A stretch of DNA of 64,000 nucleotides from Nakazawaea peltata (Eukaryota > Ascomycota > Pichiomycetes > Alaninales > Pachysolenaceae): assembly GCA_001599355.1 (NCBI GenBank), contig BCGQ01000004.1:7249-71248 (forward strand), in the 5' to 3' direction. Each line of letters opens with the position of its first letter. Within the stretch, counting starts at the first letter, position 1. Positions 6,405-64,000 of the stretch are shown here, piece by piece. A program made the position numbers and the translations under genes. The notes under the pieces were generated by a model. That model saw only the letters and a list, made by a program, of their open reading frames with translations, was not told the DNA's origin and ran no database searches.

Positions 6405-7140
6405 ATGGAACAAGACAAGACCACCGAGAAGCCAATTATCTGTAAGTGGAGTTAGGGGTATTGTGGATGGATAATTACTAACTAATGAGATAGTCGCACC
6501 AAAGACTTATCAATATGACAAGGACTCTTTAGAGATCGATCAAGTTGATGAGGACCCAATCAAGCAGTTCACCAAATGGTTTGAGGAGCTGACCAATGAT
6601 AAGGAAGAGTTATTACCTGAATGTTGTAACTTCTCTACTCTGGAGTTGCCTTCAGGTAGAGTCAGTTCCAGAATTGTTTTGTTCAAGGAGTTGGATCATA
6701 AGGGATTTGTCGTTTATTCCAATTGGGAATCGTCGAAGAAGGGTAAGCAAATCAAGAGTAACCCTCATCTGGCTATGACTTTCTTCTGGAAACGTTTGCA
6801 AAGACAATGTCGTATCGAAGGTGTCACCGAATTTGTCAGTAGAGAGACTTCTCAACGTTATTTCGATACCAGACCCCGTGGATCTAGAATTGGAGCATGG
6901 TCGTCTCCTCAAAGTTCTGTTATCAAGGGCAGAGAAGAATTCGAAGATGTTTACAAGAAGAAAGAAGAAGAATTCAAAGACCAAGAACAAGTCCCATGTC
7001 CAGAATTCTGGGGTGGATTGAGAATTGTCCCATTGGAAATCGAATTCTGGCAAGGAAGACCAAGTAGATTGCATGATAGAATCGTTTACCGTAGAGCATC
7101 GGAACATGACAAGTGGGAGATCGTTAGAATTGCTCCATAA
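6405..7140 (+). CDS. PDX3: Pyridoxamine/pyridoxine 5'-phosphate oxidase, one intron
   Basis: The product is the FMN enzyme that oxidises PNP and PMP to pyridoxal 5'-phosphate in vitamin B6 metabolism. Exon 1 is 6405-6441 and exon 2 is 6494-7140. The intron begins GTAAGT and ends TACTAACTAATGAGATAG. Splicing gives 227 residues starting MEQDKTTEKPIIFAPKTYQY, which aligns with S. cerevisiae Pdx3 (228 residues) end to end, including ELPSGRVSSRI, TRPRGSRIGAW and the C-terminal WQGRPSRLHDR. Its three CTG codons that I aligned (6589, 6640, 6769) all face Ala in S. cerevisiae Pdx3. Without the intron the N-terminal 60 residues would be lost. Confidence 0.97.
6442..6493 (+). other. PDX3 spliceosomal intron, 52 nt
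   Basis: The 5' site is GTAAGT (A at +4), the branch site is TACTAAC and the acceptor is TAG, 10 nt after the branch motif. Removal restores the conserved Pdx3 N-terminus. Confidence 0.95.
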
Positions 7141-7196
7141 AAACTACGCAGAGTCTGTAAGAAATCGTAATAAAAGGAAACTGCATCTATTTTAAA

Positions 7197-7967
7197 TTAC
7201 ATAATGACACATTTGCATGAAGAGTCTTCGGATTTTGTAGGAGCTGGCTTAGATTGAGTCAGTCTAGCAGGCTTAGCCTCAGTAGCCTCAACAGCCTCAG
7301 CCTTGGCCTTAGAAGCATCAGCAGCAGCAGGAGTAGCAACCTCGGTGGTCTCAGAAGAGCTAGCACCTGTGAACTTGGCGACGGCCTGAACGAAAGTCTC
7401 ACCTTGAAGCTTAGCCAGCTTCAATTCAACTTCAAGTGGTTGCCTAGAACCGTCAGTACCAGCAAGAGTTCCGGCACCCCATGGAGAACCACCACGGCTG
7501 GTCTCCATGTTACTCAACAATGGGTAAGCAGCACCGTAACCTAATGGGACGTAGATCATACCTTGATGAGCAACAAAGGAAAGGAAACTTCTGATAGTGG
7601 TTTCTTGACCACCACCCAAACCAGCAGTAGAGACAAAGGCACCGGCAAGCTTCTGATACAAAGCACCAGTAGCCCACAATTGACCCAGTTGATCAAAGAA
7701 GCTGAGAACTTGCAGAGGCAAATTACCGAATCTAGTTGGGAAACCGAACAAAATACCATCATAGTTGACAAGGTCTGCAACCTTGGCAATTGGGATAGAG
7801 CTATCCTTTGGAGGAGCGTGAATCATCAGTAAGACATCTTCACTCAAAGTCTCCGGAATTTGGAGCAAATCGACAGTGGCTCCAGCCAGTTCAGCACCGG
7901 CCTTGACCTCCTTGGCCATCGATAAGACGTGGCCATAAGTAGAATAGATAATGACAGCAATCTTCAT
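7197..7967 (-). CDS. YCP4: WrbA-type flavodoxin-like protein with CAAX end (Ycp4-like)
   Basis: The protein has 256 residues from ATG 7967. It belongs to the Pst2/Rfs1/Ycp4 family of FMN-binding, NAD(P)H:quinone-reductase-like proteins. The FMN loop is IIYSTYGH at the N-terminus; GFPTRFGN and GGGQET motifs follow. The C-terminal 60 residues are an Ala/Lys/Thr-rich tail ending CKCVIM, a CAAX box (CVIM) with an extra Cys, so prenylation and palmitoylation are likely; S. cerevisiae Ycp4 is similarly long. CTG in LP-x-QV falls where the family has Ala (LPAQ). It is transcribed away from the PST2-like gene through a shared 900-bp promoter. Assignment to Ycp4 rather than Rfs1 is by length and tail only. 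Confidence 0.85.
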   Translation of the reverse strand: MKIAVIIYSTYGHVLSMAKEVKAGAELAGATVDLLQIPETLSEDVLLMIHAPPKDSSIPIAKVADLVNYDGILFGFPTRFGNLPLQVLSFFDQLGQLWATGALYQKLAGAFVSTAGLGGGQETTIRSFLSFVAHQGMIYVPLGYGAAYPLLSNMETSRGGSPWGAGTLAGTDGSRQPLEVELKLAKLQGETFVQAVAKFTGASSSETTEVATPAAADASKAKAEAVEATEAKPARLTQSKPAPTKSEDSSCKCVIM

Positions 7968-8867: not shown

Positions 8868-9470
8868 ATGGCTCCAAAAGTTGCTATCATTATCTACTCC
8901 ATGTACGGTCACATCGCCACCTTGGCTGAAGCTGAGAAGAAGGGTATCGAAGCTGCCGGTGGTGAGGCTAAGATTTTCCAAGTTGCAGAGACTTTGAGCG
9001 AGGAGGTCTTGCAAAAGATGTACGCTGCTCCAAAGCCAGACTACCCAATTGCTGACAACGACACCTTGACTTCTTACGATGCCATCTTGTTCGGTTTCCC
9101 AACCAGATTCGGTAACTTCCCACTGCAATTCAAGGCCTTCATCGATGCTACCGGTGGTTTGTGGGCTTCTGGTGCTTTGTACCAAAAGCCAGCTGGTATC
9201 TTTGTTTCCACTGGTTCTCCAGGTGGTGGACAAGAAACCACTGCTATTAACGCTTTGTCTACCTTGGTTCACCACGGTATGATCTACATCCCATTGGGTT
9301 ACGGTCCAGCCTTCCCATATTTGTCTTCCTTCGATGAAATCCACGGTGGTTCTCCATGGGGTGCTGGTACTTTCGCTGGTGCAGATGGTTCTAAGAAGCC
9401 AAATGAAACCGAGTTGAAGATTGCCGAGACTCAAGGTGAGGCTTTCTACAAGGCTATCTCCAAGTTCTAA
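8868..9470 (+). CDS. PST2: WrbA-type flavodoxin-like protein (Pst2-like)
   Basis: The protein has 200 residues from ATG 8868 (context ACAAAAATGGCT). An in-frame extension upstream lacks an ATG. The FMN site is IIYSMYGH, followed by [17 protein letters not shown] and HGGSPWGAG as in Pst2/Rfs1/Ycp4. It lacks the CAAX tail of its neighbour and matches S. cerevisiae Pst2 in length (198). Codons are strongly biased to TTG, GGT, GCT and ACC, suggesting high expression. Its CTG at 9123 lies in FP-x-QF, where the family has Ala. Likely role: antioxidant NAD(P)H:quinone reductase at membranes or eisosomes. Confidence 0.88.
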
Positions 9471-9516
9471 ACTAGTTAGAAAATGATTCTATAAATCTTA
9501 TGAATAAATTGGTTTT

Positions 9517-10677: not shown

Positions 10678-10761
10678 CTCAGTGTCACACCATTTAAAGT
10701 TTCGTGTCAGTGCTTAAGCCGATGCTTAAGACTACGCAAGGAAAAAAAGTTTAAAACGAAA

Positions 10762-10780
10762 AAGGTTGAAATTTTTCACC
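10762..10780. promoter_or_regulatory. RRPE-like palindrome in METTL16/MIX14 divergent promoter
   Basis: TGAAATTTTTCA is a palindrome of the RRPE type in the 151-bp interval between the two divergent start codons. Function is inferred only. Confidence 0.45.
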
Positions 10781-10828
10781 AATTCCAGACGACAAGATAT
10801 ACTTGCTGGTAGCGAAATATAGGTGATA

Positions 10829-11128: not shown

Positions 11129-11184
11129 TTTAGCCGTGTATAAAGTTATGGGAATAGAGTATTATTTTATATTTATGTACAAGT

Positions 11185-11724: not shown

Positions 11725-11930
11725 CTTGCTTGGTATCAATACGGTTTCCAATACTTATCTTGAAAATGTTCCATCGAAGTTCCATCTCATCTTGAGCTTT
11801 TTAAAGTTTGAAACTTTTTTTTTCGTCAGTGTCATAATTTGCTGCAAGGTAGATTTAGACTGAGCAGAGAAAGTGTGTCACGGTGACAGTGTCATAGATA
11901 AAAAGCATTCCCATTCATTTTATACAAAAC

Positions 11931-14548: not shown

Positions 14549-16696
14549 TTACAGGAAATTAAACTCACTACTGACCTGTTTGGCAGCCAACTTAGCCATC
14601 TTCAACATCTTAGTTCTAGGATCCTCTTTCTTAGGTTTACTACTCTTAGAAGATACACTATTACCACTGTTGATGTTCTTAGGAGTCTCTCTTAAACCGA
14701 AACTCTTTGCTAAATGTCCAAGATGTAAAGCTTTTACGTTGAAAATGCTTCTCTCGCTCGATAAATGGGTAGCATACAGTCTTACATGAGAGGTAAACCC
14801 TTGCTTAGCAAGATCCAACAGAGTAGAATCCTCCAACAACCATCTCTCTACATTCAAATGCCAGGTAGTAGCATCATAGTCCCAATTATCTTTCTTCTTA
14901 GGATCAGTACTTACGAAACCTTCTTTCAAAACTTGCTCGTAATGGATAGTTTGCAAACCAGAAGGATGACTCTTCCTAATATATTCTACATAACCTTCTT
15001 CCAGGCCAGGTAAAAGGAATAAGGCAGATTCACCACGAAGACCAGCTCTGGCAGTTCTACCAACTCTGTGTAAATGATCATCGACACTGAACAGCGGGTC
15101 ATACTCTACAATGTTGGAGATATGGGGTAAATCCAAACCTCTAGAAGCCACATCAGTACAGAATAAGACAGTGTGCTTGCTCTTGGATTGGACAAACTTC
15201 TGTAAAGTGGAGGTTCTTACTTGTTGAGAGAGGGAACCGTGCAATTTGAAAAAGGCAATGTTAATGGCAGGTTCTTCAACTACAGGCTTTTCAGAGTCAT
15301 CGTCCTGGGATTGTGTTTTTCTCAGAGCTCTTTCTTGAGCTTCAGTCAATTGTGGAGAATCCCTTGTGAAGACTTGATGATGAAACTCGACACTATCAGA
15401 ACAAGAGAAGAATACCATAGTTCTAGTTTGATCTTCAGAGGCATTGATACGACTCAATAATGCATTCAACGAGACCAAACGTAATTTAGGAGGTACGATA
15501 ATTACTTGTTGGGTTAATTGATCAGGAGCAACCAGATCTTCTAATTCTACGACACCCGACTCACCAGAGACGGTGACATTCTCGGCATTCTTCAACGAGA
15601 TCTCACCCAACTTCTTAACATCATTCTTCATTGTGGCAGAACATAATACGTTGACTCTTCTAGTAGATGGTAAAGTAGAGTTATAACTGGAATGGAATTT
15701 CTGGGTCTTCTCCAATTTATCTAAGATCTTAGTGATGGTCTCTTCGAACCCAAGGTCCATTAAACGATCACCTTCATCCAACACCAAGTATCTAACCTCA
15801 GAAAGATCTAAAGACTCGGTATTTTCAATATGGTCTACTAATCTACCAGGAGTAGCTACTAAGATATTTACACCTTTACGAATTCTAGCCTTCTCACTCT
15901 TCTTCTTCTCACCACCAATGACGATCCCTGGCACGATTCTATGACAACAACGAGTCAATGTCTCTAAGACAGAGTAAATCTGTTGCAGTAACTCACGAGT
16001 TGGCACTAAAATCAACAGGAAGAGACCACTGTTTCTGGAGATCTCTCTATTGGACATCAACAGTTGGAAAATTGGCAAGACAAACGACAACGTCTTACCA
16101 GAACCTGTTTGGGCTTGTACAAACAAGTCACTACTACTATCAGTGGTACGATATAACAATCTAGGGATTACGGATCTTTGAATCTTGGTGGGCTTTAAGA
16201 ATCTCAAATGTTGAGTCAAATGATTACTTAAATCTTTGTCCAAACCTAAACCTTCAAAAGTTGTGGCTTCAGTAGCAGCTAAAGGAGCATTGGAAGGAGC
16301 CAATTGCTCAAGCAGAGCACTTTCCAGTACTTTAAACTCTGGGTTAGACGTGAATAAAGACGACACATAACTGTTATTCATTCCTCCACCTTCACCACTC
16401 TTTTCTTTACCCAAACTTGGTCTTGGTCTTTTGTTTTCTCCACTGTTTGTGGAGCTGGCTGGGTCTGCACGTACTCTTTTCTTAACTTCAACACTATTGG
16501 ATCCACTTTTCAGTGGTTCTTTAACCTTTTTACCCACGCCACCAGCACCTCCAGCTCCTCTTCCTCTATTTTGACTTACAAGTTGAGCTCTTCTACGTTC
16601 TTTCCATCTTCCACCAGTTACTTTGGTCAGAACTTTAGCAGGCCCAACAGAGGCCGTGCTGAAATTCATCAACATTCCATCTTCGTCGTCACTCAT
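14549..16696 (-). CDS. DBP7: DEAD-box RNA helicase for 60S ribosome assembly
   Basis: The protein has 715 residues from ATG 16696 ([16 protein letters not shown]), like S. cerevisiae Dbp7 (742). Motifs are visible in order: [13 protein letters not shown]-x-[22 protein letters not shown] ([13 protein letters not shown]), SAT, then [13 protein letters not shown] and [10 protein letters not shown]. The C-terminal block [15 protein letters not shown] is typical of Dbp7. The sixth residue of motif Ia is encoded by CTG (15986-15988): standard code gives PTRELL, Ala gives the canonical PTRELA. It acts in the nucleolus. Gene order DBP7-RPC37-GCN3 with these orientations equals S. cerevisiae YKR024C-YKR025W-YKR026C. 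Confidence 0.96.
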
Positions 16697-16779: not shown

Positions 16780-16780
16780 A

Positions 16781-17828: not shown

Positions 17829-18746
17829 CTAATCATACCAAATCTTAATCAACTCCTCACTAACTGCACTTGGTGTCAATACTCCCAAGTCCGTAATCAA
17901 AGCCGTAATATACTCATGAGATGTATAGTCAATCAACGGACTCAGCTCATCCTCAACTCCCTTACCCTGTGTCAAATTGATATCATCCGGTCCCAATGGG
18001 AACATTCTAACAAACTTATGAGACTCAGCAACTACATACAACGGTTTATTAGCGTTCTTCAGTAATACTCCAATCTGATACGATCCAATATGGTTTATAA
18101 TTCCTCCACTTTCTGCCACACCTTCAGCTCCTACAAACACCTTATCAACTTTATGGATATAATAACCTACAGCCGAGTCATTGATCAAGGTGACTGGGAT
18201 CTTCAACAGACGTAAAGACTCAGCCATCTCCCGTCCTTGACATGTAGGCATCAGCTCACACACAATGACCTTGAATCTGATGAACTTAGAAGCCGCAAGC
18301 GACAACAAATTCAATACAACTCTCGAATAAGAATGGATCAAGATGATATCCCCATCACGAATGAACGGTAACCCGATCTCGGCGATCTTCTCACGTGACA
18401 GCTTGGCTCTATTGACGAACAATTGTCCATTTGATACCAAATGAGTACGGCAGCTCTCCCAATCCGAGTACAAATGGGTGTTTCTGAACACAAATCTCAT
18501 GAACAAATCACATCCAGCACTAAGAGAGATGTTATTTGGGATCGACTGTTTCAACAACTGGATTTGTTCGGTCAATAAAACTTGTAATTCACTGGAGGTC
18601 GAGGGTTGTTTGACCTTTAATAAGGTGACAAGCGACTCGATCAGAGCTACAGGCATGGTCATTTCTTTGTCCTCTTCGAGGAATTTTAAGTAAGTTTCTT
18701 TGATATTGAAGTCTGGGGAGTTAGTATGGGAGTCTACTGGAGGCAT
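17829..18746 (-). CDS. GCN3: eIF2B alpha subunit
   Basis: The protein has 305 residues from ATG 18746, the same length as S. cerevisiae Gcn3. Matching blocks include TYLKFLEEDKEMTMP, KIAEIGLPFIRDGDIIL, DKVFVGAEGVAESGGIIN, ESHKFVRMFPL and the C-terminal LGVLTPSAVSEELIKIWYD. It is a regulatory subunit of the eIF2 exchange factor that senses phosphorylated eIF2. CTG at 18642-18644 lies in MPVA-x-IE, where S. cerevisiae has MPIAAIE. A TGACTCA (Gcn4-type) site lies at 18853-18859 upstream. Confidence 0.97.
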   Translation of the reverse strand: MPPVDSHTNSPDFNIKETYLKFLEEDKEMTMPVALIESLVTLLKVKQPSTSSELQVLLTEQIQLLKQSIPNNISLSAGCDLFMRFVFRNTHLYSDWESCRTHLVSNGQLFVNRAKLSREKIAEIGLPFIRDGDIILIHSYSRVVLNLLSLAASKFIRFKVIVCELMPTCQGREMAESLRLLKIPVTLINDSAVGYYIHKVDKVFVGAEGVAESGGIINHIGSYQIGVLLKNANKPLYVVAESHKFVRMFPLGPDDINLTQGKGVEDELSPLIDYTSHEYITALITDLGVLTPSAVSEELIKIWYD

Positions 18747-19188: not shown

Positions 19189-21786
19189 ATGGAGATATTT
19201 ATGAGATCACATTGTAGAACAATCGGTTTCGGTGTGTTTCAGAGTTTAAAGCTCGCGAAACCGCCGAGTTTTGACCATTTAACCCCCCTCCATTCAACTA
19301 CCTCTTACTCTCCCACCCATCGATGCTACACTACTGGAGCTAAGACCAGCGGTAAGGTCAATGACTTGAGAAAACTAAGGAATATCGGTGTCATTCTGCA
19401 TATCGATGCCGGAAAGACCACAACTACCGAAAGAATGCTTTACTACAGTGGAATTACAAAGAGAATTGGTAATGTAGATGAAGGAGATACTATGACCGAC
19501 TATTTATCACAAGAAAGAGATAGAGGGATCACTATTCAGAGTGCTGCCGTGACAATCCCTTGGAATCTGCACAGAATCAATATTATAGACACTCCTGGTC
19601 ATGCCGACTTCACTTTTGAAGTCATCAGATCTCTCAGAGTTCTCGACGGTGCCGTCACAATCTTAGATGCCGTCGCTGGTGTGGAACTGCAAACTGAGAA
19701 AGTTTGGAAACAGGCTGCCGACTTGGGTATTCCTAGAGTCGTATTTGTGAATAAGATGGATAGAGAAGGTGCTGGGTTTGGAAGAACTGTCAAGGAAGTC
19801 ATCACCAAGTTGAATACCAAGGTGGTTTTAGTAAATGTTCCGTATTTTGTAGAAGATCCAAAGACCAGACAACAAATCTTCGTAGGGGTCGTCGATGTGT
19901 TCAATAAGAAGCTTTTGAAATGGAATGACTCTTCTAAAGGTGATGGTAAAGATGTCCAAGTGACTGATATCACCGAGGATACTCCAGAATTGTATGAAGA
20001 AGTGTATAAATGTAGAGAACAGCTGGTGGAAACTTTGGGTGAGATCGATGATCTGGTCGTCGATTCTTTCTTGGAATCTGATGAGGATTATATGGCTGTT
20101 CCCACCCATATTTTGAAACTGCTGTTACGTAGAGCCACTTTAGAGAATTATGCTTGTCCTGTTCTTTGTGGTGCATCCTTCAAAAACATCGCTGTTCAAC
20201 CATTGATGGACTCAATTGTTGATTACTTGCCTTCTCCATTGGAGATTTCACCTCCTCAAGTTTCTAGTAGACTTGTGGCCACAAAGAAGTCAAAGGCTCA
20301 AAAATCAACTGATTCAAGCCCACTGCTGTCACAGCAGGTCACTTTGGACTCTGTGATTGACCCCGTTGAAGGCTGTATCATCAACAACAACAAGAATTTG
20401 ACAGCTGCTTTGCTGTTCAAAGTAATTACTGATCCTAACAGAGGTATCATGGTCTTTGTCCGTGTCTACTCAGGTAAATTACAATCGAATTCTCATGTTC
20501 TCAACACGAAAGATGGAGAGTCGGTCAGAATCGGTAAGCTTTTGCTTATGATGGCTGACCAACCTCAGGATGTACCTGTCTTGGGTGAAGGAAGTATCGG
20601 AGTTATCACAGGAACTAATGGTGAGATCACTACTGGTGACACTTTACTTTGCAACAAGAATGGTAAGAGTAACGTTGCGGTAATTGAGAAAGCTGCCAAG
20701 TTGCATCCTATTCCTGTCCCACCTCTGGTCTTCTCTGTATCGTTAGAACCACAAACTGTAGGAGATACAAGGAAGATGGAAGAAAGCTTAAAGATTTTAC
20801 TTCGGGAAGACCCGTCTTTAAAAACTCATATTGATGATGAGAGTGGTCAGACGATCTTGACTGGAATGGGTGAACTCCATTTGGACATCGCCGTAGACAG
20901 ATTGACTAACGATTTAAAACTGAAAGTCCAAGTAGGTGAAGTAATGGTCACTTATAAAGAGAGTTACTTGGGTTCCCTGCCTACAAATGTATACGAGAAA
21001 GAGTTGGTTTCTTCTAAGGGAGATACCTATTCTGTATCTGTCTCTTTGGAATCTTTTGAAACTGATGTTGAAGAATACCTTGCAAGCAGCACTGGTGACG
21101 TTTACTATTTGTCTGACAACAATGCTGTAGTATTCGAGGAAGGATGTGACCCTGAATTTGTAGAAAAAGAGTTACTGAAAGAAGTTTGGAGTTTGAAAGT
21201 TCCGTACGAGAGAATACTAAAGAATATTGTGTCTGGATTACAAGCGTCGTTGAATATTGGTGGTCCTATCCTGAGACTTCCATTCCATTCCACCGTGATC
21301 AGAGTACACAGCTACGATTTCCCATCTGATACCGATAATGTAAAAGACTTGATTTCTTGCTCGAGATTACTGTTATTAGAATTGATCAAACAATACCCAG
21401 TCGAACAATTCACTTTCTTAGAACCTTTCATGTCGATTCAAGTCCATGTCAATGATAACGATTTAGGAAATGTTTCACAAGATTTGATGACCGCAAGAAA
21501 ACTGATTATTCACTCCATTGATGATGACAGTATAGGAACAGAGCTCGACTCAACCTGGAGTCTCAAAGAAGCTCAAGACATGTATTTACCTAAAGATATC
21601 ACTATGGAAAGATTCGATAGCTCTCAATCGATCAAGAAAATCATCAAACTGGAACTGCCATTAAAAGAAATGGTCGGGTATTTGACAAAATTAAGAAGCT
21701 TGACCAAGGGAACCGCTAATTATGATATGGTTTATCTTGGCATGAGACGTGTTGATAAGGACAGGCTTTCCAAGATTTTAGAATGA
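19189..21786 (+). CDS. MEF2: Mitochondrial ribosome-recycling GTPase (EF-G2 type)
   Basis: The protein has 865 residues from ATG 19189 with a basic N-terminal presequence. G motifs: x-HIDAGKTTTTERMLYY, DTPGHADFTFEV, NKMDREG; domain II follows, and the domain IV/V end is KLRSLTKGTANYDMVY. Blocks such as CGASFKNIAVQPLMDSIVDYLPSP favour Mef2 (EF-G2, ribosome splitting after termination) over Mef1. CTG encodes the residue before HIDAGKTT (19396) and the x in GVExQTE (19687). Both are near-invariant Ala in EF-G proteins, among the strongest evidence for CUG=Ala. Confidence 0.93.
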   Translation: MEIFMRSHCRTIGFGVFQSLKLAKPPSFDHLTPLHSTTSYSPTHRCYTTGAKTSGKVNDLRKLRNIGVILHIDAGKTTTTERMLYYSGITKRIGNVDEGDTMTDYLSQERDRGITIQSAAVTIPWNLHRINIIDTPGHADFTFEVIRSLRVLDGAVTILDAVAGVELQTEKVWKQAADLGIPRVVFVNKMDREGAGFGRTVKEVITKLNTKVVLVNVPYFVEDPKTRQQIFVGVVDVFNKKLLKWNDSSKGDGKDVQVTDITEDTPELYEEVYKCREQLVETLGEIDDLVVDSFLESDEDYMAVPTHILKLLLRRATLENYACPVLCGASFKNIAVQPLMDSIVDYLPSPLEISPPQVSSRLVATKKSKAQKSTDSSPLLSQQVTLDSVIDPVEGCIINNNKNLTAALLFKVITDPNRGIMVFVRVYSGKLQSNSHVLNTKDGESVRIGKLLLMMADQPQDVPVLGEGSIGVITGTNGEITTGDTLLCNKNGKSNVAVIEKAAKLHPIPVPPLVFSVSLEPQTVGDTRKMEESLKILLREDPSLKTHIDDESGQTILTGMGELHLDIAVDRLTNDLKLKVQVGEVMVTYKESYLGSLPTNVYEKELVSSKGDTYSVSVSLESFETDVEEYLASSTGDVYYLSDNNAVVFEEGCDPEFVEKELLKEVWSLKVPYERILKNIVSGLQASLNIGGPILRLPFHSTVIRVHSYDFPSDTDNVKDLISCSRLLLLELIKQYPVEQFTFLEPFMSIQVHVNDNDLGNVSQDLMTARKLIIHSIDDDSIGTELDSTWSLKEAQDMYLPKDITMERFDSSQSIKKIIKLELPLKEMVGYLTKLRSLTKGTANYDMVYLGMRRVDKDRLSKILE

Positions 21787-43522: not shown

Positions 43523-46500
43523 TTAGCTAAAGAAACATGACCATAAGTCTCCCGTAGATACGACTTCACCTCCACTCAGCTTTTTATCAAAAAGGTTATC
43601 TACAGTAGCTGTCAATTCGACCGTAGTGACGGTATCGATGGCCAGTTCATCGATTTCGGCTTCATCTGGAAGCTGGTCCTCAATCTCAGCATCCGTATGT
43701 TGTTCCGGTGCAAGATATTCAAGCCTTCTCCTTGTAGACAACTTCACAATAGACTGCTCTACAGTATTACTAGTAGCGAACATCCATACAGTAGTAGGGT
43801 TCCTCTGACCAATCCTATGAATCCGACTAATGGCCTGTAACTCCAACAGAGTGTTCACAAGAGGCTCACAAAGGAACACATGTGAAGCATTGACCAACGT
43901 CAACCCACTCAGTTGCAGCTTAGCATTTAATAAGAAACATGTGATGTCTGAGTTCTTCTTGAACATCTCTACATCGGTATGTTTGACCATACGACGACCA
44001 GAACCTATTCCTGAACTGAGAGAGTCGTTCGACGTCAAGAACTTGATCCCTTCCAGTTTGAACAGAGTCGCAATTACATATAAGAATTCTGACCATTGTG
44101 AGAATACCACAATTTGCAGTCGAGGATTCGTCTGAACCAATTGCTTGGCTACTTTTACAATGAGATTTACTTTTGACCCCCATGATCTCAGAGTCTTGGT
44201 GTCTTCGATAGCACGAAGTTCAGATGAGTTTAGAGTTTGGTAAATGGAATGGAGGAAGGAGTCATCACCTTTAGTCTCACTCAGATTTTCTTCCTTCTGA
44301 CCCTCTTCATCCCCTTCCACCAAAGCTTGCTTCAAACTCACCCGAGTATATGTAAACGTATATAAAGAAGCTCTATCTAAAGTAGTTTTACACATTGGAC
44401 ACTTCCTCCAACTATGTCTCATCCACTCTTCAAGACAATCTCTACAATATTGATGACCACAAAGAGTTAAGACACCTTCTTCGATAGGTGAATGACAAAT
44501 AATACAAATCTTATCATCATCATCGTCATCCTTCCCATCTTCGCTTTGCTCATTTGTAGCCTTCAAACTATTAAGATATTTGGATCTGACCATTATCCGT
44601 TTCTTGGTATTCTCCAAATTCTCAATCTCTACATTCAATTGTCTAGTATCTTTACCCATTGAGTCCAATGCCGAAGTCGTCACCATGTCACTCAATTGTT
44701 GTAAGCTCTTATAGTATTCGATTCTGGCATTGTACAAGGTATTGAGGGGATCGAAATGTTCTCTTTTTAATTTGAAAAGCAGCTTCTTTTGTTGGTCTAA
44801 AGTACTCTTCAAATGACTAACTAAATGTTGGAATAACTGCTCTTCTACACTTCCATTTCCCCCCATTTTACTTCCTACAGTTATAGAATCACTGATCAGT
44901 TTCAGTTTTAAGATCATAGATCTCAAGGAAAGTTCAGGATGATAAACCAGTTGAGGTAATACCAGCCTTCTTTGAAGTTCGAGTTCTTTCGAGAATTCAG
45001 ACATATTTTCATTGCTAGAGCTTGTATTCTTTCTACTATTATTGAACTCTTCATCCGCTTCATCTTCATCTTCCAATTTGGTCAATGAAGTTACCACAGA
45101 TTGATCTACGACACCAGTTAAACATTCATTACGGTCTTTAAGACATTTCTGAACAACTTCCAATAACAGAAACAGTTTCTCTTGATTATCAAGAGACTCT
45201 TCATACTCTTTGGAGTCTGCATCTTCTACCAGAGTCGCATCCTCTTTTTTACTGGAATCTTCAAGTTCGTCTTTCAACTTTTTATCTAATAATTTATAGG
45301 CCTCATGGATCCATTTATTCATCAAGATGGCCTGTTTGTTGAGTTCATCCAGATAAAAGAGGAACTTGTCTAAGAATAACAGCAGTTCAATTCCAAGAAC
45401 TTCGAATCCGTCTTTGATAATGGTTGGAACTACATCTTGGTTTTGATTTGGAGCTTTCAAGGACATGACAAGACGATTGACTTTAGAAATAGACTCTTGT
45501 AATAACTCACGTCTTACAAATTCGGCTTTGTCGTAGTATTTTACTTCAAGTTTACGATGTTCGAGTTGATCTGGCGTAAGATCTTCATCTTTTACGTCAT
45601 CCGGGTCGATTTCTGTCTCGACTTCTACAACTGACGGATCTTCACCATTGGCAACTGCTTCTGAGGCTCGTAGTCTAGCTCTCTCAGCTTCAATTTCTCC
45701 CATATACACTTGGTAATGCAGGGTAGCTACTAAGAAATACACTCTATGTAAGATTTCCAACCAACTTCTGAGTCTGGCTCTCAGCAGAGTCATTGAATCG
45801 TCATCAGAATCCACCAGGATCGTACTTAGCAGTTCTCTAGCTTGAGATAGTTGCGATTCGGTCGGCTCAAGACACAATTCCCACTCCAGAAGAGCATTGA
45901 CCGGTGATTTTAAGGTCTCGAAGACTTGTCCCTTAGAAAGACGCAGTAGAATTATACGACGTTCATGTTTAACTACTTGCTCTTCGTTCTCCTTGATCAG
46001 AAGATCCAAAACAGCATCTACAGTACGAAATCTAGCATCCTCTGAATGAGAAGAACCATTCAGAAGCTGACCAGGACCCATTCCACCTCTCGGACCCATT
46101 CCAAATTGACCCCCATCACCAAATCTTCCCACTGTTCCCCTTCCAATCTGAGGATGACAACAAGCTTGTCTCAATTTGACAAGCCATTCCCTCATTAAAG
46201 AGACGACGGCAGGATTTGAGAGGATCAGATCGATATCAGGACGATTATTGGCATGTTCATCGTCTTGGGAAATTCCCCCAGCCACTACAGAGCGACCATC
46301 GCTGGTCAATTGAGCTCTCATAAGGAATCTCTCAAACATATGATCATAAAGATTACGTTCAATGGGGGTAAATTGAGTCATTAAAAGCACTCTTCTTTGA
46401 GGTGGAAGTTTTACCTCATTACTAACCATAGATTTAGTATGTCTGATCAGAATTGACTCGAATAATCGGAAGAAATGAGGTGAACAGTCCATCAATTTCA

Positions 46501-49491: not shown

Positions 49492-52400
49492 TTAGAATTC
49501 GTCATCAGAAGAGACGTAGGCATCACCTAATTCCTTCTTCTTCTTCATTCTTTCCTTCTTCTTCTTTCTCAACTCGGCAGAAGATAACTTGGCCTTCTTA
49601 GCCTTAGTAACAATCTTGTTACCCATGGCATCGAATTTGTCACCTTCTTCCTCCTTCTTGGACAATCTTGGACCAGTACCTTGACCGGCAACCCAGTTGT
49701 GACCAGATGGAACCATTTGACCGTTGTTGACGGTCCAGACTTCCTCGGTCAAGTCCTTGGTGAACTCAGAAGAGTGAGTAATGATGATAACACCACCCTC
49801 GAAAGCCTTCAAAGCCTTGGACAAGGCTCCCAAGGAGTCTCTGTCCAAATAGTTAGTTGGCTCATCCAAGACGATCAAGTGAGGTCTTTGCCAGGTACAA
49901 GCAGCCAAGACCAACTTAACCTTTTGACCACCAGACAAACCTCTGATATGAGCGTGGGAAACCAACTCGGTGTCCAAACCTAACATGGCACAGTGCAGTT
50001 CGATTTCCTTTCTAACCAATGGTCTGAATTGACCAGAAGCCAAGGCTTCCTTCATATCAACTTCGGCAACCATCTTGGAGTGGGTCTCAACCAACTCACC
50101 TCTTGGTAACCAGGTGTTGTCGGCAGACATCATGTTGATCCATCTCTCGTTCTTCATACCAATGTTCTCACCTAATTGCCATTCAATCTCGTACTCGTAA
50201 GAGTTCTTGAACTTTCTTCTGGCAATAATGTTCTTAATACGTCTTGGGGTACCTTCAACCTTGAAGATCTTCTTCATGTTCTCCTCATCGTTCTCGTTGA
50301 TTTGTCTAGAAGCTCTGTCCATGGTTTCTCTGTCCTCACCGGTTTGGAATCTCCATTGGATATATTCGGATGGAGTCTTGTCCAAGTGGGAGTCGATGTG
50401 GGCGAAAGCGTGTTGCTTAATGTAGGCAATTCTACAGTTCTCGTGAGTGTAAACTTCACCCTCGGTTGGCAACAATTCACCGGTCAAAACGTTAATCAAA
50501 GTGGACTTACCAGCACCGTTTGGACCAATGACGGCAATTCTCGAAGACAAGGAACATTGGAAGTTAACGTTAGAAACTTGTGGCTTGGTGGTACCTGGGT
50601 ATTGGAAGGTCATGTTGGAAACCTTGACAATAGCCTTTTGCTTGGTCTTAACACCTTCCAAGAAACCTGGTTCTGGGAATCTGAACTCCAAGTCAGAGTT
50701 TCCGATTTCCTCGTAAGCCTTAGCAGCTGGAACCTTCTTGATGAACTCAGAAAGGTTACCCTTGTACTTTCTCAATTTGTAACCCTCGTAGTGGATAATG
50801 TATTGACAAACATTGTCCAAGAATCCAGAGTCGTGGGAAACGATAATGGAAGAAATACCACAGGTGTTCAAGTAGTTGACTAACCAAGCAACGTTGACGG
50901 TATCCAAATGGTTAGTTGGCTCATCCAACAACAAAATGTCGGCGTTTCTTAAGACGGCTCTAGCCAAGGCCAATTTCATCTTCCAACCACCGGACAAGGA
51001 GAAGATAGACATCTTAATCATCTCTTCGGTGAACATGAACTCTCTCAACTTTTGTTCAATCTCTTCTCTGGTAGATTCTGGGTTGGTCTCCAAAACGAAG
51101 TCAACGACAGACATATCGGCAGAAGCAGAGTCGATATCGTGCTCGACGTAAACGGTTCTACATTCCTCTGGGGTTGGGAAACCGTCAACTTGACCGTTAG
51201 CAATGGCCTTCATCAAGGTGGACTTACCAGCACCGTTTGGACCACACAAACCGTATCTTCTACCTCTCTTCAATCTCAATTGGGTCTTGTTCAACAAGAT
51301 CTTAGCACCGTAAGCCAAAGAGAACTCACAGTTACACAAGTCTTCACCTTCATCGTCCTCATCTTCGAAAGATGGACCAACTGGGATGTTGTCGACAGAG
51401 GTCTTTCTGAAGTCCTCCAACAACAGCTTCAGTTCCTTCTCGTGCAAGAAGATGGTCAAGAATGGCAAGATGTTTTGTAACCAAGATTGTGGGTCGATAA
51501 TTCTCTCGTCAATCAAGTCACCGGCAATAGCGGCAATGTAGGACTTGACAACGTTGAATTTGGCATCGACTTCGAACTTACCGTCCTTCAACAACTTGTT
51601 CAAAATGTCCAAGTTGACTTGAACGTCACCAGCGGTGGACATTTCTGGGATGGTGTCATCTTCTGGAACCAAACCAACTCTCTTCAAAGTGTTCAAACCT
51701 CTGATGGTAACCTCACGGGCTTCTGGGTCGGCAATGTTAGCAACGTTGTGCTTCAAAGCTGGCAACAATTTACTCAAGAATGGAGCAACGACTTGTGGGT
51801 CATCGACCAACTTACACATGTTGTCGATAATAACGGCAGACTTTCTCTTGATGGCAGTCTCTCTCTCGACCAAACCTCTGGACAACAATGGAACCATGAT
51901 GGACAAAGTAGAGATGGTGACTTCGGCAACGAAAGTGGTGGCACCCAAGGTGTGAACGGTGGATGGAACCTTGTTTGGATCAGCGATAGACTCGATCAAC
52001 TTTGGCAAGAATGGCTTAACATCCTTGTTCTCAACGGTCTCAGAACACTTGGTCATGGTGGCAGTAGCAGCCTCCTTAACCTCAACCTTGGTGTCCCACA
52101 TCTCCTCAGACAAGATTGGGATCAACTCAGGCATACGCAAAGAAACTTGGTCCTTGGCGGTGTCGACCAATTGGGCAATAGCGTCCAAAATGGCAATCTT
52201 TTCTTGCCATTTGTTGGTGTTCTTCAAGTTCTCCAACAACAAAGCCAAGAAGATCTTGATAGAAGATGGGGTGATAGCAGCGGCAATTTGCTTCAACAGC
52301 TTCAGAGCAGTCTCTCTAACTTCCTTGTCCTTCTCACCAGCCTTGGTGGCAACCTCTGGGGTCAAGTCAACAACGTATGGCTCAACAGATGGACTCAAAC

Positions 52401-52638
52401 CGTTGGTAGAAGCAATGTGGGAAACAGCCTCCAAAGCGTTAAGAGCGCTCTTCTTGTTCTTAACTTGGTCCTTCAATTGCTTGAAAAATTCTTGTGGAAC
52501 ATCATGCTCAATGATGTTACCGTTCAAGAATGAGGAAACGTTGGCAGCGGCGCCATCACGCTCCTCCAGGGTCAGGATGGCCAACTTGCCGAATAATTCA
52601 CTGAGAACCTCGGTAGAGTTAATCTTCTCGGATGCCAT
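49492..52638 (-). CDS. YEF3: Translation elongation factor 3
   Basis: The protein has 1048 residues from ATG 52638 (S. cerevisiae Yef3 1044). N-terminal HEAT repeats (about 1-320), two ABC cassettes with GPNGAGKST at about residues 468 and 700, LSGG signatures, a chromodomain insert (about 800-870), and a Lys-rich tail ([14 protein letters not shown]). It is a fungal-specific ATPase for E-site tRNA release. Codons are extremely biased, mostly TTG for Leu and GCC/GCT for Ala, with few CTG, as expected for a highly expressed gene. Confidence 0.98.
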
Positions 52639-53831
52639 GATTTCTAGTACACTATAATATTCGTCAAGGCAAATCTAACTTCAAACTTTTTAATAAAAGA
52701 AAACTGGCGGGCGGTTTTTTTTTTTTATAAATGAAAATTTTTTCACCAGGAGGGAAAAATTCACCAGGAGGAAAAAATTTTTATTTTTTCTTTTTTTTGA
52801 TTGTGATGAGGGCAGGGGCAGATAGGGGCAGATAGGGGAGGGTAGAGTATGGGAAGAATATGGGAAGAATATGGGGGTATATTGGACAATGCTAGTGATT
52901 GCTTCGGTTCTAGATCATCCAGATCGTTGTTCTTGTTATAACTCTCTATGATTCAATGCCTCTATATCACTTTCCACAATTCTTATTCCTATCACTTCCC
53001 CTATTGCTGTCTCGTCTTACTTTCCATTCCTGCCCTTCAACTAGTCCTGCCCTTGCCTAAATATTTCCTTTCGATGAGTCGTGTAACTTATACCAAATTA
53101 CATCTATAATCTACAGGGTCTAATTACATAGTAATAAGTAAGTAGTAGCGTTCATGGATAAACTACTGTAAACAGATCAGGTTCCTCTCCATCACTTCAT
53201 TCTGTTACTTTCTCTATCAATTGATCTGTTATTCTTATTTAGTTCATTAATTCCTACCCACTTCTTAACACAGATCTAAATTATAAACTTTACTTCCGTT
53301 TTGAGAAATTTTACTCTGTAGAATTCTTTTCTACATTTTTACTCTTCTAAATTGATTGATCTGTAGATTAATGGTACTGAGAACTCTATTCAGCCAATCC
53401 TCTTTCTTCTCATTCAATTGTCTGCTGTTCTCTTTTCTCGTCCCACCACATCTCGCTTTGTATCGGTCTCGCCCTCAGCCTATCTCTCTCCCATCCCCTT
53501 CTTTGCTCTGCCCCGGGTAACCCTTACAAATCCATCTAAGCGAGAACATTCACTCTAATAAAATTTCAGCTACATCTGTCAAAATCATCAATATCCAACT
53601 CTTCAACTCATGATCTTTAAAGTTTTCATCTCTTCCGATCCCAACTCAATCCAACACTCTCTATCTAACCTCACACTAATCTCACCCTAATCTCATCCTC
53701 ATCCCCATTGACACGTGTCGCCTATATACCCCTCTTAGTATTTGCGCAACAATAACCGGGTAATCATTACCCAAACTGGAGTCATCGCATAACGTTAACA
53801 CTCGATTTTTCTCATTTAATCAAGTAGTTAA
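52639..53831. promoter_or_regulatory. YEF3 upstream region with small tandem repeats
   Basis: TTCACCAGGAGG(G)AAAAA is repeated twice near 52741-52778, and GGGGCAGATA and GGGAAGAATAT units repeat at 52813-52875. The rest is AT-rich without a recognisable gene up to the tRNA. Confidence 0.6.
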
Positions 53832-53903
53832 GGTTGTGTAGTGTAGTGGTTATCACCCCTGATTCTGATTCAGGCAACCCCAGTTCGAATCCGGGCACGA
53901 CCT
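53832..53903 (+). tRNA. tRNA-Gln (anticodon CUG)
   Basis: A 72-nt intronless cloverleaf: acceptor GGTTGTG/CACGACC with discriminator T, anticodon stem CCTGA/TCAGG around the loop TTCTGAT (anticodon CTG, reading CAG), T loop TTCGAAT. The D arm GTGTAGTGGTTATCAC is typical of yeast tRNA-Gln. TTTTT at 53912-53916 is the Pol III terminator. It reads CAG and is not the tRNA that decodes CUG. Confidence 0.96.
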
Positions 53904-54118
53904 TTGGCTTATTTTTAATTTTTTTCTTCAAAAAAAGGGCAGATAAAGAGGGAGAGCAGGGTCTGGACAGAGTCTGGACAGTCTGGAGCACACATTTGTG
54001 CATACGGTGAAGAAGCTGAAAAGCAGATAAACAAAGTAGGAGAGCTTTGAACTTCTCCTCCACTTCTTTTACTCCACAAACTATCCACTATAAATAATCC
54101 AGTCTTATTTTGGTATTT

Positions 54119-55084
54119 CTATATAGGATTGTTTCTAAACAAATAACTAATACTCTCACCATTGTGCAATCTTCTAATACTCTCCAGTAATACTCCAGAG
54201 ATATCAATAGAATCCAATTTAGGACACTTCAGCAGCTTTTCTTCGAAAGGAACAGTGTTTGTGCAAACAACTCTATCCAATTTAGAGTTATTGATATTCT
54301 CAATCAGTTTACCACTTAAAACACCATGAGTTACAATCAGAATAACACCTTTAGCACCATTCTCCAACAATATTTCCAGCAGCTTCAGTAAAGTTCCACA
54401 AGTATCAGCCATATCATCAACAATAATACAGATCTTATCGGTAACATCACCAACAAGTACCATCTTACTGACTTCATTCAGTCTAGCACGTTCCTTATGA
54501 ATAAGGGCGAAATTCAAATCCAATCTGTCCAGCAAACCCAGAGCACGTTTCAGCCCACCTGCATCAGGAGAGATGATGATACAGTCTTGCTTATAATTCA
54601 AGTTCTCTTTGATATAACGAACAACACTTGGTTCCAGGTATAAGTTATCTACTGGGACATCGAAGAAACCTTGGATTTGAGACAGATGTAAATCCATAGT
54701 GATCACATGATCACATCCCGCAGTGGTCAACATATCAGCCATCAATTTCAGAGTAATAGGAGCACGAGATTTATCCTTACGATCTTGTCTCAGGTATGGG
54801 AAGTTAGGTAATACCAGGGTGATACGTCTCAGCGACAGGGTTTTACAAGCATTGATCATAATCAACAACTCCAAAACACGGTCATTCACAATACCAGACC
54901 CGATCTGTTGAATGATATAGATATCTTCATCTCTAATACTCTCTCCTATACTGAAGGAGACTTCTTTATTGGAGTCTCTTTTCAATTCAGTATGACATAA
55001 CTTGATTCCCAACCTACTGGAAACCAACTCCAGTAATCCGGTATGGGTATCACCAGTCAATAATTTGATAGAGTTAGTTGACAT
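54119..55084 (-). CDS. PRS4: Ribose-phosphate pyrophosphokinase (Prs2/Prs4 type)
   Basis: The protein has 321 residues from ATG 55084. It makes PRPP for nucleotide, His and Trp synthesis. It aligns almost without gaps to S. cerevisiae Prs2/Prs4: EVSFSIGESIRDEDIYIIQQ, NFPYxRQDRKDKSRAP, MLTTAGCDHVITMDLH, and the PRPP loop VDDMADTCGT. Nearly every standard-code mismatch to Prs2/Prs4 is Leu for Ala at a CTG: PYxRQD (54791), MDLHxSQI (54683), DNLYxEPS, PDAGGxKRA, GTLxK. This makes it the clearest single-gene demonstration of CUG=Ala. Prs2 versus Prs4 cannot be decided. Confidence 0.95.
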   Translation of the reverse strand: MSTNSIKLLTGDTHTGLLELVSSRLGIKLCHTELKRDSNKEVSFSIGESIRDEDIYIIQQIGSGIVNDRVLELLIMINACKTLSLRRITLVLPNFPYLRQDRKDKSRAPITLKLMADMLTTAGCDHVITMDLHLSQIQGFFDVPVDNLYLEPSVVRYIKENLNYKQDCIIISPDAGGLKRALGLLDRLDLNFALIHKERARLNEVSKMVLVGDVTDKICIIVDDMADTCGTLLKLLEILLENGAKGVILIVTHGVLSGKLIENINNSKLDRVVCTNTVPFEEKLLKCPKLDSIDISGVLLESIRRLHNGESISYLFRNNPI

Positions 55085-55736: not shown

Positions 55737-56201
55737 ATGGGTATCAGATATATCGTCTTATTATCCAGACAAGGCAAAGTAAGACTCTCCAAATGGTACA
55801 CAGCCGTACCTCAAAAAGAACGTACAAAGATCATCCGTGAATTGACCCTGGTGATCTTGTCAAGAAGACTGAAAATGTGTAACGTGTTAGAATACAGAGA
55901 TTCCAAGTTGATCTACAGGAGGTATCTGTCGTTATTTTTCATTGCTGGTATCGAGCAGGACGACAATGAGTTGTTACTGTTAGAGATTATTCACAGATAC
56001 GTTGAGCAAATGGATAAAAGTTATGGTAGTGTTTGTGAGTTGGATATTATTTATGACTTTGAGAGAGCATTGAGTATTTTAGATCAATTGGTGATCAATG
56101 GAGAGATTTATGAGAGTAGTAGGACGGCGGTATTGGATCTGATTCTGCAACATCATAGATTGGAAACACCATTTTCAGAAGTAGAGGATGTTATAGGTTG
56201 A
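55737..56201 (+). CDS. APS1: AP-1 clathrin adaptor sigma subunit
   Basis: The protein has 154 residues from ATG 55737 (S. cerevisiae Aps1 156). Sigma-adaptin blocks: IVLLSRQGKVRLSKWYT, KMCNVLEYRDSKLIYRRY, NELLLLEIIHRYVE and GSVCELDIIYDFERA. It acts at the trans-Golgi and endosomes. CTG at 55926 lies in RY-x-SLFF, where sigma adaptins have RYASLYF. Confidence 0.95.
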   Translation: MGIRYIVLLSRQGKVRLSKWYTAVPQKERTKIIRELTLVILSRRLKMCNVLEYRDSKLIYRRYLSLFFIAGIEQDDNELLLLEIIHRYVEQMDKSYGSVCELDIIYDFERALSILDQLVINGEIYESSRTAVLDLILQHHRLETPFSEVEDVIG

Positions 56202-57984: not shown

Positions 57985-58003
57985 ATGGATGATCGATTTT
58001 ATT

Positions 58004-60490: not shown

Positions 60491-63400
60491 ATGTCAATGG
60501 AATATTGGACTAACGTGTTGTCTAGCCCAACACTCAGCGTGTTACCACACGATTTCCTCAAACCTTCCAATGGGCGTGTAGTGGAATCCACCTACTCATT
60601 TGAAGTGGCGGGAGCCGACTCCAAATCTCATACCGATTTCATCAGCGGATTAGCTCTGTTTGCTCTGTTAATCTACAGATTAACTGGAGATGATGACATT
60701 GTGATCTTCACCGATGATCAAGCCGGAGACGAGTTCATCGTAAGAACTACCGTCGACCCAACCTTGACGTTCAAACTGTTCGCCCAAATCATCGCCCAAC
60801 TGTACAATCAACTGTTATCAAATAGATTGCCCTTGAGTGAAATATTGGAAAAAATGGGCAAAGATCTGCCCCAACACCCTTACCGTTTGTCCTTCCAACA
60901 CGATAAAAAGAACAAAAACTTGCCCGCGCACAGTGACATGGCCATCTATGTCAGTGCCGTCTGCCCTTCTTATCAGATCCACTACAATTCTTTGTTGTAC
61001 AAATATGACAGATTGGTGATCATTGGGGAGCAATTGAACCGCTTTTTGGATCCTGCTAACCATGACTTGGTGTTGACCCATATTAACTTGGTGACTCCTT
61101 CTCAGAAACTGGCTTTGCCCGACCCAACTGTAGACTTGGAATTCTCTAATTATAGAGGGGCTATTCATGACATTTTCCATGAGAATGCTCAGAAATTCCC
61201 GGACAGAACCTGTGTTGTCGAGGCCAAATCGTTCTTGAACCCTGACTCGAAGGACAGAGTCTTCACTTACAAGCAGATCAACGAGTCTTCCAACGTAGTA
61301 GCTCATTATTTATGTCAAACTGGTATTAAGAGAGGAGACGTAGTCATGATTTATCTGTACCGTGGAGTCGACTTGATGATCGCCGTTATGGGTGTATTGA
61401 AACTGGGTGCCACATTCAGTGTCATTGACCCTCTGTATCCTCCTCTGAGACAGAACATCTACTTGAGTGTAGCTAAACCAAGAGGTCTTATTGTGATTGA
61501 GAAGCTGGGAATTTTAGATGATTTGGTATTGGATTATATTAAAGATGAGTTAGATGTAGTATCTACGATTCCAAAATTGAGAATTGAGGATGATGGTACT
61601 ATTGTAGGTGGATCTACCGAAAGCTCTGGCGATATCCTTGCTCCATACTATGAATTGAAATCCCAAAAGACTGGTGTCATTGTCGGCCCAGACTCCAATC
61701 CAACTCTTTCCTTCACTTCAGGTTCCGAAGGTATTCCAAAAGGTGTCCTCGGTAGACACTTCTCTCTTCTGTACTACTTCCCATGGATGGCCAAGACATT
61801 CGGACTCTCGGAGAATGACAAATTCACCATGTTAAGTGGTATTGCTCACGATCCAATCCAAAGAGATATGTTCACCCCATTATTCTTGGGTCTGCAATTG
61901 TTGGTTCCTACTCTGGATGATATTGGAACTCCAGGACGTTTGGCCGAGTGGATGGACGAATATGGTGCTACTGTCACCCATTTGACTCCTCTGATGGGTC
62001 AATTATTGAGTGCCCAACTGACTCATGAGATCCCTTCTTTGCACCATCTGTTCTTTGTAGGTGATATCTTGACCAAGAGAGACTGTCTTCGTTTACAAAC
62101 TTTGGCCAAGAACGTGTTCATCGTCAACATGTATGGAACCACCGAGACTCAGCGTGCTGTCTCATACTTTGAAGTCAAGTCCAGAGCTGCTGACTCGTCT
62201 TTCTTGGAATCTTTGAAAGACGTCATGCCAGCCGGTAAAGGTATGTTGAATGTCCAATTGCTTGTGGTTAACAGACATGACAGAACCCAGACTTGTGGTG
62301 TAGGAGAAGTTGGTGAGATCTACGTCAGAGCCGGAGGTTTGCTGGAAGGATACCGTGGATTGCCTGACTTGAACGAGCAAAAATTCATCAAGAATTGGTA
62401 CGTCGACAACGCCCAATGGGTCCTGAAGGACAAAGCTTTGGACAACCAAGATGCTCCTTGGAGAGAAGTCTGGTTAGGCCCAAGAGACAGATTGTATAGA
62501 ACTGGAGATTTGGGTAGATATTTGCCAGACGGAAACTGTGAATGCTCAGGTAGAGCTGATGACCAAGTCAAGATCCGTGGATTCAGAATTGAATTGGGAG
62601 AGATCGACACCCATTTGTCCCAACATTCTGCCGTTAGAGAGAATGTCACTTTAGTTAGACGTGATAAGAATGAGGAACCTACTTTGATTTCTTATATTGT
62701 GATCAAGAGTGAGGCAGAGATTGCTCTGGCTACTTCTGGAGCTGCTTCTGCTGCTTCTCCTGACTCTCCTTCAGTTGATGCTGACCCAATCGTTCACGGT
62801 CTTGTCCAATACAGAGAGCTTATCAAAGACATCAAACTGTACCTTAAGACCAAGTTGGCTTCTTATCTGGTACCAACTATCATTGTTCCTCTTAAGAAGT
62901 TACCTTTGAATCCTAACGGTAAGATCGATAAGCCAAAATTACCGTTCCCAGATACTGCTCAATTGGCTGCAGTTCTGAGATTGACCCAATCTCAATCTCG
63001 TTCCGACGACAAGCCTGAGCAACTCACTGCTACTGAGCTGCTGGTCCAACAATTATGGACTGAGATCTTGCCTAATGCTCCGGCTTTGGTCAAGACCGAC
63101 TCTTTCTTCGACGTTGGAGGTCATTCCATTCTTGCTACTCGTATGATCTTCGAGATCAGAAAACTGATGACCGTTGCCTTGCCATTGAACCTGGTCTTCA
63201 AACATCCAACTATTGAGAAGTTTGCTGCCGAGATCGACCGTTTGAAATCCGAGGATGAAGTCGAGTTGGCCGGCTCTGCTAACACTCAGCTGGAAGAAGA
63301 GGAAGATTCCAATGCTATCGACTATTTCGAAGATGCCAAACACTTGGTCGAAACTCTGTTGCTGTCCAAGTATTTGAGCAGAGAATCTGTTGGTCAAGAT

Positions 63401-64000
63401 GAAGATCTCACCTTCTTCGTCACCGGTGTCACTGGTTTCCTCGGTTCTTACATTGTCCGTGATATCTTGAGTAGATCCAATGCTAACTATAAGATCTATG
63501 CCCACGTTCGTGCTAGTTCCAAGGAGCTGGGTCTTGAGAGAATCAGAAAGGCCGGTAAGGTCTACGGAGTCTGGGATGAATCCTACCTGGAGAAGATTGA
63601 GGTTGTCCTTGGAGATTTGAGTAAACGGAGATTCGGAATGGAAGAAGGTTCCAGTGTCTGGTCCTCTTTGTGTGACAACGTAGACGTTGTCATTCATAAC
63701 GGTGCCCTCGTCCACTGGGTTTACCCATACCATAAATTGAGAGATCTGAACGTTCTCAGTACCATCAACGTGATGGAATTGTGTTCCCAAGGTAAACTGA
63801 AGATCTTCAACTTTGTCTCGTCCACTTCCACCATCGATACCGACCATTACGTCGAGTTGAGTGACAAGATCTTACTGAGTAGCAGCAATGGAGCTGGTAT
63901 TCCTGAATCTGATGATTTACTCGGCTCTAGTTCAGGTCTTGGTACTGGATACGGTCAAAGTAAATGGAGTGCCGAGTACATCATTCGTCACCTGCTGAAA
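60491..64000 (+). CDS. LYS2: Alpha-aminoadipate reductase, 3' end outside window
   Basis: The frame is open from ATG 60491 to the window end, 1170 codons of the usual about 1390. An adenylation domain has [13 protein letters not shown] at about residue 407, [15 protein letters not shown] and [14 protein letters not shown] carrier domain has [15 protein letters not shown] (phosphopantetheine Ser at about 878). The reductase domain starts with [15 protein letters not shown] at about 977. The enzyme reduces 2-aminoadipate to its semialdehyde in lysine synthesis and needs Lys5. CTG at 61892, 61991 and 62048 face Ala in S. cerevisiae (FLGAQL, TPAMGQ, HHAFFVGD). Confidence 0.98.

Follow-up and report, generated by a model that had tools for sequence, protein, structure and literature searches.

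Masked alignments point to alanine as the meaning of CUG in a 64-kb stretch of budding-yeast DNA

Which amino acid does CUG specify in the 64,000-base stretch of contig BCGQ01000004.1 analysed here (the window; GC content 42.17%, with a single run of N at 30060-30354)? An earlier note, written from the sequence, had claimed that CTG codons sit on family-conserved alanine positions in at least fifteen unrelated genes. In unrelated genes across the contig, CTG falls on alanine columns far above chance, and alanine is the best meaning for it by three partly independent tests: masked columns, log-odds over 20 residues and Pfam domain scores. We are close to certain that the window would be nuclear DNA of a CUG-Ala budding yeast (Alaninales), with CUG read as alanine, most likely via a tRNA-Ala with anticodon CAG, and with the other codons for which there are data standard. 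The code itself is already known, since it has its own NCBI table, number 26, and a yeast order, Alaninales, is named for it.

Bacterial relatives were collected for MEF2 (80 loci), PRS (30), PHA2 (30), LYS2 (25), DBP7 (25) and the YCP4/PST2 family (9) by searches in which CTG was translated as leucine, so that the collection is biased against alanine; a CofD-like protein with one weak match in 25 bacterial genomes was left out of the analysis. With CTG masked, a column was counted if it held at least eight aligned sequences and was called conserved if at least 60% of them shared one residue. The earlier note had proposed a tally of this kind as a check: 72 CTG codons had at least eight aligned sequences, and among the 30 on conserved columns the consensus residue was alanine in 19 (PRS 12, MEF2 3, PHA2 2, DBP7 2; none in LYS2, YCP4 or PST2 at 60%), leucine in one and serine in none. 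The contributing genes lie either side of the N gap. As controls, conserved columns under GCT and GCC codons were alanine in 20/26 and 11/16 cases, respectively, and those under leucine codons were leucine in 45/59 (TTG), 26/34 (TTA), 7/13 (CTT, with alanine in 3) and 5/5 (CTC).

Bias from the letters of the query was removed in a blind control, in which CTG and all alanine, leucine and serine codons were masked and the sequences realigned, giving 1,844 columns in five genes (YCP4 and PST2 were without any column of eight sequences). The mean make-up of the 57 CTG columns was then 0.38 alanine, 0.06 leucine and 0.06 serine. The alanine share was 0.43 for GCT (37 columns) and 0.30 for GCC (29), and the leucine share 0.43 for TTG (86), 0.38 for CTT (24) and 0.46 for CTC (11). 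When codon labels were shuffled within genes, conserved-alanine CTG codons numbered 2.85 on average and never more than 11, so that 0/10,000 shuffles reached the 19 observed. Because PRS dominates the tally, the shuffle was repeated without it: 14 conserved CTG columns remained (Ala 7, Pro 3, Leu, Phe, Val and Met 1 each), and the seven alanine columns exceeded a mean of 1.19 and a maximum of 6, again with 0/10,000 shuffles reaching the observed value. Conserved-leucine CTG occurred once, against a shuffle mean of 1.78.

Scored over all 20 residues, CTG (76 columns) gave log-odds of +76 for alanine, -42 for serine, -58 for valine and -70 for threonine, and about -108 for leucine when per-gene values were summed; these scores are not probabilities, because the columns and the sequences are related. 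Per-gene sums without PRS were about +36 for alanine, -32 for serine and -69 for leucine, and by gene alanine came top in MEF2, PRS, PHA2, LYS2, DBP7 and PST2. If CUG kept its standard meaning, leucine, the alanine positions would have to come from chance or divergence. This reading could draw on the only CTG of the 30 that stands on a conserved leucine column (MEF2, 20023-20025, forward strand; leucine in 59/79 bacterial sequences and in EF-G2), a codon that may represent a relic or a change that the protein tolerates, and on GCN3 residue 268, which is leucine in the yeast chain. Against it stand the distance between -108 and +76, the shuffles with and without PRS, and the codons TTG, TTA, CTT and CTC, whose conserved columns are mostly leucine. 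On column tallies, log-odds and shuffles we reject leucine, leaving it a vanishingly small chance.

The same log-odds method regained the standard residue for 50/60 codons, CGA being without data. The misses were CTG, AAA (Arg over Lys by 12), AGC, AGG, CGG, CTA, GCA, TCG, TGC and TGT (margin 13); the nine other than CTG have small margins or few columns, and CTG is the sole codon to depart strongly. CTT and CTC keep leucine, and CTA is based on just 2 columns. Judged from these alignments, the sense codons with enough data, other than CTG, appear to keep their standard meaning.

Domain scores gave the same order of amino acids for CTG. Twenty genes were scanned against Pfam with CTG as alanine, leucine and serine, and the bits of 35 non-overlapping, hand-picked domains were summed; nine further proteins were scanned with CTG as alanine only and stand outside these sums. 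The totals were 4369.2 bits for alanine, 4255.1 for serine and 4142.3 for leucine. Alanine outscored leucine in 33/35 domains and serine in 33/35; summed per gene, it was ahead of leucine in 20/20 and of serine in 19/20, the one gene with serine ahead being explained by PSF1, which is nearly even (Ala 118.6, Ser 118.8). The PRS N domain scored 149.2 bits with alanine, 138.6 with serine and 130.8 with leucine, and Bud3_N of BUD3 155.0, 152.4 and 137.1.

Each of the 23 positions numbered in the earlier note holds a CTG that is in frame with the gene given there, and its unnumbered LPxQ site in the YCP4-like gene is a CTG at 7713-7715. The column evidence is strong in the following cases. In MEF2 the CTG of the xHIDAGKTT motif (19396-19398, forward strand) stands where alanine is found in 80/80 bacterial EF-G sequences and in the EF-G2 chain 7nsh_BC. 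In PRS (reverse strand) the motifs PYxRQD (54791-54793) and MDLHxSQ (54683-54685) have alanine in 27/30 (Ser 3) and 20/30 (Thr 6, Ser 4), and CTG also encodes residues 85 (54830-54832) and 260 (54305-54307), each alanine in 30/30. Motif Ia of DBP7, PTRELx (15986-15988, reverse), has alanine in 23/24, and of the two adjacent CTG codons in the SHQxx motif of PHA2 (prephenate dehydratase; 39302-39307, forward) the one at 39302 has it in 14/15. The remaining strong cases come from solved structures: the PDX3 codons at 6589, 6640 and 6769 (forward; all alanine in 1ci0_A, the sole yeast chain compared), RRYxSLFF of APS1 (AP-1 sigma; 55926-55928, forward; alanine in both AP-1 sigma chains compared), AVxFWSWD of HRT1/RBX1 (40640-40642, reverse; alanine in the sole RBX1 chain compared) and GCN3 residue 35 (18642-18644, reverse; alanine in 3/3 eIF2B alpha chains). 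Evidence of this kind is moderate at LYS2 61892 (Ala 11/21), PST2 9123 (5/9), the YCP4-like site (4/8) and PHA2 39305 (6/14, Leu 4); the sites in ZIM17, IRC20, BUD3 and PYP1 were judged by whole-domain Pfam score alone. At three further sites the evidence is weak or departs from what the earlier note claimed. MEF2 19687 is proline in 71/80 bacterial EF-G sequences (Ala 4) and alanine in the closer mitochondrial EF-G2 chain; LYS2 61991 is weak (Ala, Thr and Ser 5 each of 21); and at LYS2 62048 (Val 8, Ile 5 of 19) alanine is outside the four commonest residues.

Eukaryotic relatives were compared through one solved-structure chain per gene (for MEF2 against EF-G2, the first aligned domain only), and we take these chains to come from the source organisms named here. 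Over 31 CTG sites the chains have alanine at 14 and leucine and serine at 2 each. Alanine stands at all three sites in PDX3, at 2/6 in APS1 (others Gln, Pro, Thr, Glu), 1/2 in HRT1 (other Val), 2/6 in GCN3 (others Lys, Ser, Gln, Leu), 3/7 in YEF3 (others Ser, Thr, Asp, Glu) and 3/7 in MEF2 (others Gly, Leu, Glu, Thr). A homology-free test was afforded by the repeats of a giant open reading frame (ORF) at 24829-30990, where 10/14 CTG sites could be matched to copies with equal three-residue flanks. The copies carry Val 38, Ala 33, Ile 12, Gln 8, Glu 3 and Gly 1 at these sites, with valine as frequent as alanine and with no leucine and no serine, a result that fits the alanine reading but does not single it out.

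Several of our results weigh against alanine. In 11 of the 30 conserved columns under CTG the consensus is a residue other than alanine (Pro and Val 3 each; Leu, Phe, Arg, Met and Thr 1 each); PRS alone supplies 12 of the 19 alanine columns, and without it the mean alanine share of CTG is 0.28. Among solved-structure relatives 17/31 CTG sites are not alanine, and GCN3 residue 165 (CTG) is serine in 3/3 eIF2B alpha chains. In YCP4 (4 columns) threonine and serine outscore alanine by log-odds. The Pfam exceptions are EF-G_D2 (leucine by 0.1), PSF1_C (serine by 0.4) and one tied zinc finger. Overlapping Pfam families were excluded from the sums, and several of these lean away from alanine: ResIII on DBP7 (Ala 42.7, Leu 43.3) and on IRC20 (Ala 20.8, Ser 21.1), Flavodoxin_1 on YCP4 (Ala 38.6, Ser 39.5) and on PST2 (35.2, Ser 35.3), Flavodoxin_5 on PST2 (Ala 22.5, Ser 23.4), 3Beta_HSD (leucine) and GDP_Man_Dehyd (serine) on LYS2 by 0.3 bits, UMPH-1 on PYP1, and several minor P-loop families on YEF3. 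Finally, no tRNA reading CUG was found in the 64-kb window.

Serine, the meaning of CUG in the Candida group (Serinales) and in Ascoideales, is the reading that some of these points would favour: besides GCN3 residue 165, YEF3 residue 112 is serine in yeast eEF3, and serine ranks second to alanine both in log-odds and in summed Pfam bits. A second place is expected, because alanine and serine are chemically alike. Not one of the 30 conserved CTG columns in the bacterial alignments is serine, alanine leads it by about 118 log-odds units and is preferred in 33/35 Pfam domains, and we regard a serine code here as highly improbable. Like leucine, it is rejected on column tallies, log-odds and shuffles.

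How, then, would CUG come to be read as alanine? Most likely a tRNA-Ala whose anticodon became CAG would decode it. In the CUG-Ala group the cause is given as a tRNA-Ala gene with its anticodon mutated to CAG (PMC5951914). The same source describes the alanine and serine synthetases as requiring no particular anticodon bases, which makes alanine and serine the amino acids that CUG could most easily take on. As no CUG-reading tRNA was found in the window, we infer the decoder; the species and a single, unmixed decoding are likewise inferred steps of the explanation. The only tRNA found in the window is a tRNA-Gln at 53831-53904 (forward strand) with anticodon CTG, which reads CAG and is distinct from a tRNA with anticodon CAG.

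CTG is a frequent codon in the window: 359 occur in 29 ORFs, about 23 per thousand codons (about 2.3%, or roughly 1 codon in 43), and 364 stand beside 757 GCN codons in 31 ORFs. It makes up 34% of alanine codons when the repeat ORF is excluded, and 67% in PRS (54119-55084, reverse strand; 20 CTG vs 10 GCN codons). YEF3 (eEF3; 49492-52638, reverse) is sparing in it, with 7 CTG vs 78 GCN codons, that is 7/85 (p = 1.4e-8 vs the rest), and CTG is also rare in PST2 (1/28) and a TauD-like gene (2/28). Over 29 genes the CTG share of alanine codons did not correlate significantly with codon bias (Spearman -0.29, p = 0.13), and YEF3 was the only gene to stand apart significantly. Depletion of CTG at conserved columns relative to GCN was not detected in these small counts (28/57 vs 31/74, p = 0.48), nor was it at conserved alanine columns (19/57 vs 20/74, p = 0.45) or without PRS (conserved 14/37 vs 24/64, p = 1.00; conserved alanine 7/37 vs 14/64, p = 0.80). 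At 80% conservation the alanine columns tilt to GCN (CTG 10/57 vs GCN 18/74, p = 0.40).

These figures bear on a third possibility, namely that CUG is ambiguous, mainly alanine with a minor share of leucine or serine through a competing or mischarged tRNA. Mixed serine and leucine decoding has precedents in Candida albicans and Ascoidea asiatica, according to two studies (PMC5951914, PMC8629427), and the single CTG on a conserved leucine column would fit. On the other side, CTG stands at invariant alanine sites (80/80, 30/30), its depletion at conserved sites was not detected, and one leucine column is no more than the level for GCT (1/26 conserved), although low-level mixing would be invisible to the column test. 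We consider ambiguity unlikely, if less so than the serine and leucine readings. With alanine as the meaning, the reassignment might be far enough advanced in this lineage for CUG to be an ordinary, frequent alanine codon, free to occupy invariant alanine sites and avoided only in the genes of strongest codon bias (YEF3, PST2) through a limited supply of the CUG-reading tRNA, a proposal for and against which we find the balance roughly even.

The window carries a budding-yeast gene set that includes eEF3 (YEF3), LYS2, BUD3, GCN3, ATP11 (by Pfam, the ORF at 37483), MED7, DCC1, PSF1 and HRT1; names that go past the Pfam and structure labels come from the earlier note or are presumed. Among the genes that informed the analysis, MEF2 (mitochondrial EF-G2; 19189-21786, forward) has 19 CTG codons, LYS2 (60491-64000, forward; cut at the window end) 38, BUD3 (32626-37140, forward) 44, DBP7 (14549-16696, reverse) 14 and the IRC20-like gene (43523-48484, reverse) 59; GCN3 (eIF2B alpha) occupies 17829-18746 on the reverse strand, and PRS encodes ribose-phosphate pyrophosphokinase. 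PDX3 (6405-7140, forward) has one short intron with boundaries set from sequence; within 6405-6495 its elements (GTAAGT ... TACTAAC ... TAG) come directly after a 37-base first exon, and a plain ORF caller overlooks the gene start. Two nearby flavodoxin-like paralogues of the WrbA type lie on opposite strands (7197-7967, reverse; 8868-9470, forward), both with CTG at the same FPxQ/LPxQ site and with unequal CTG shares of their alanine codons, 6/41 in the former vs 1/28 in the latter. The giant repeat ORF (forward strand; 2,053 residues) is rich in Ser, Thr and Pro, with recurring TGPDCE and PVTSES units, a signal-like N-terminus, a hydrophobic C-terminal end and the assembly gap inside it, and it looks like a cell-wall adhesin. 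A further ORF crossing the window edge (3-998, reverse) has GLEYA and PA14 domains followed by tandem repeats, and by these domains it would be a flocculin-like adhesin.

The results fit a small group of yeasts already on record in the literature. The genera that the earlier note had listed as CUG-Ala yeasts, Pachysolen, Nakazawaea and Peterozyma, agree with the Ala clade of Krassowski 2018 (PMC5951914); with Codetta, the CUG assignment is reported to fit the known distribution in 453/462 yeast species, the other nine being undecided (PMC8629427), and a 2025 study includes 17 Alaninales genomes (PMC12322030). A 2014 study found no CUG codon of Pachysolen at highly conserved leucine or serine positions (PMC4986446). 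By the published generalisation, CUG is a rare codon wherever a clade has been recoded (PMC5951914), and a 2021 study of three GAL genes in recoded species put the average frequencies of CUG at 0.003-0.006 (PMC8084343); a 2024 codon-usage study states CTG avoidance for Serinales and Ascoideales, not, in the passages covered, for Alaninales (PMC11540330). In literature covered mostly at the level of titles and abstracts, with supplementary tables outside, we found no statement of frequent or free CTG use for Alaninales. If it is true, free CUG use would be an exception to the published view of CUG as rare and peripheral in recoded yeasts, and high CTG use with no detected depletion at conserved sites offers an example in which the spread of a sense codon after its reassignment could be followed. 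There is also a practical consequence, in that standard-code gene models or proteins from this contig would be wrong at every CTG. In the main text of a paper that treats Nakazawaea ambrosiae together with other beetle yeasts, "codon", "genetic code", "CUG" and "CTG" do not occur, and so some public annotations of the group may use the standard code. The GC content of the window is near the 42.3% of N. ambrosiae CCF 6643 (PMC10106607, Table 2), a likeness that is only suggestive and too weak by itself to name the species.

Set beside the known codes, the contig gives back the standard residue for 50/60 codons with data and departs strongly from the standard code at CTG alone. The CUG-Ser yeasts of code 12 (Serinales and, separately, Ascoideales) moved the same codon away from leucine, but unlike in those yeasts CTG here falls on no conserved serine column (0/30). 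The contig resembles code 26 (Pachysolen tannophilus; Alaninales) in that CTG passes to alanine, CTT, CTC, TTA and TTG stay leucine and the genes are those of a budding yeast, and it differs from the published picture of the recoded clades in that CTG is common.

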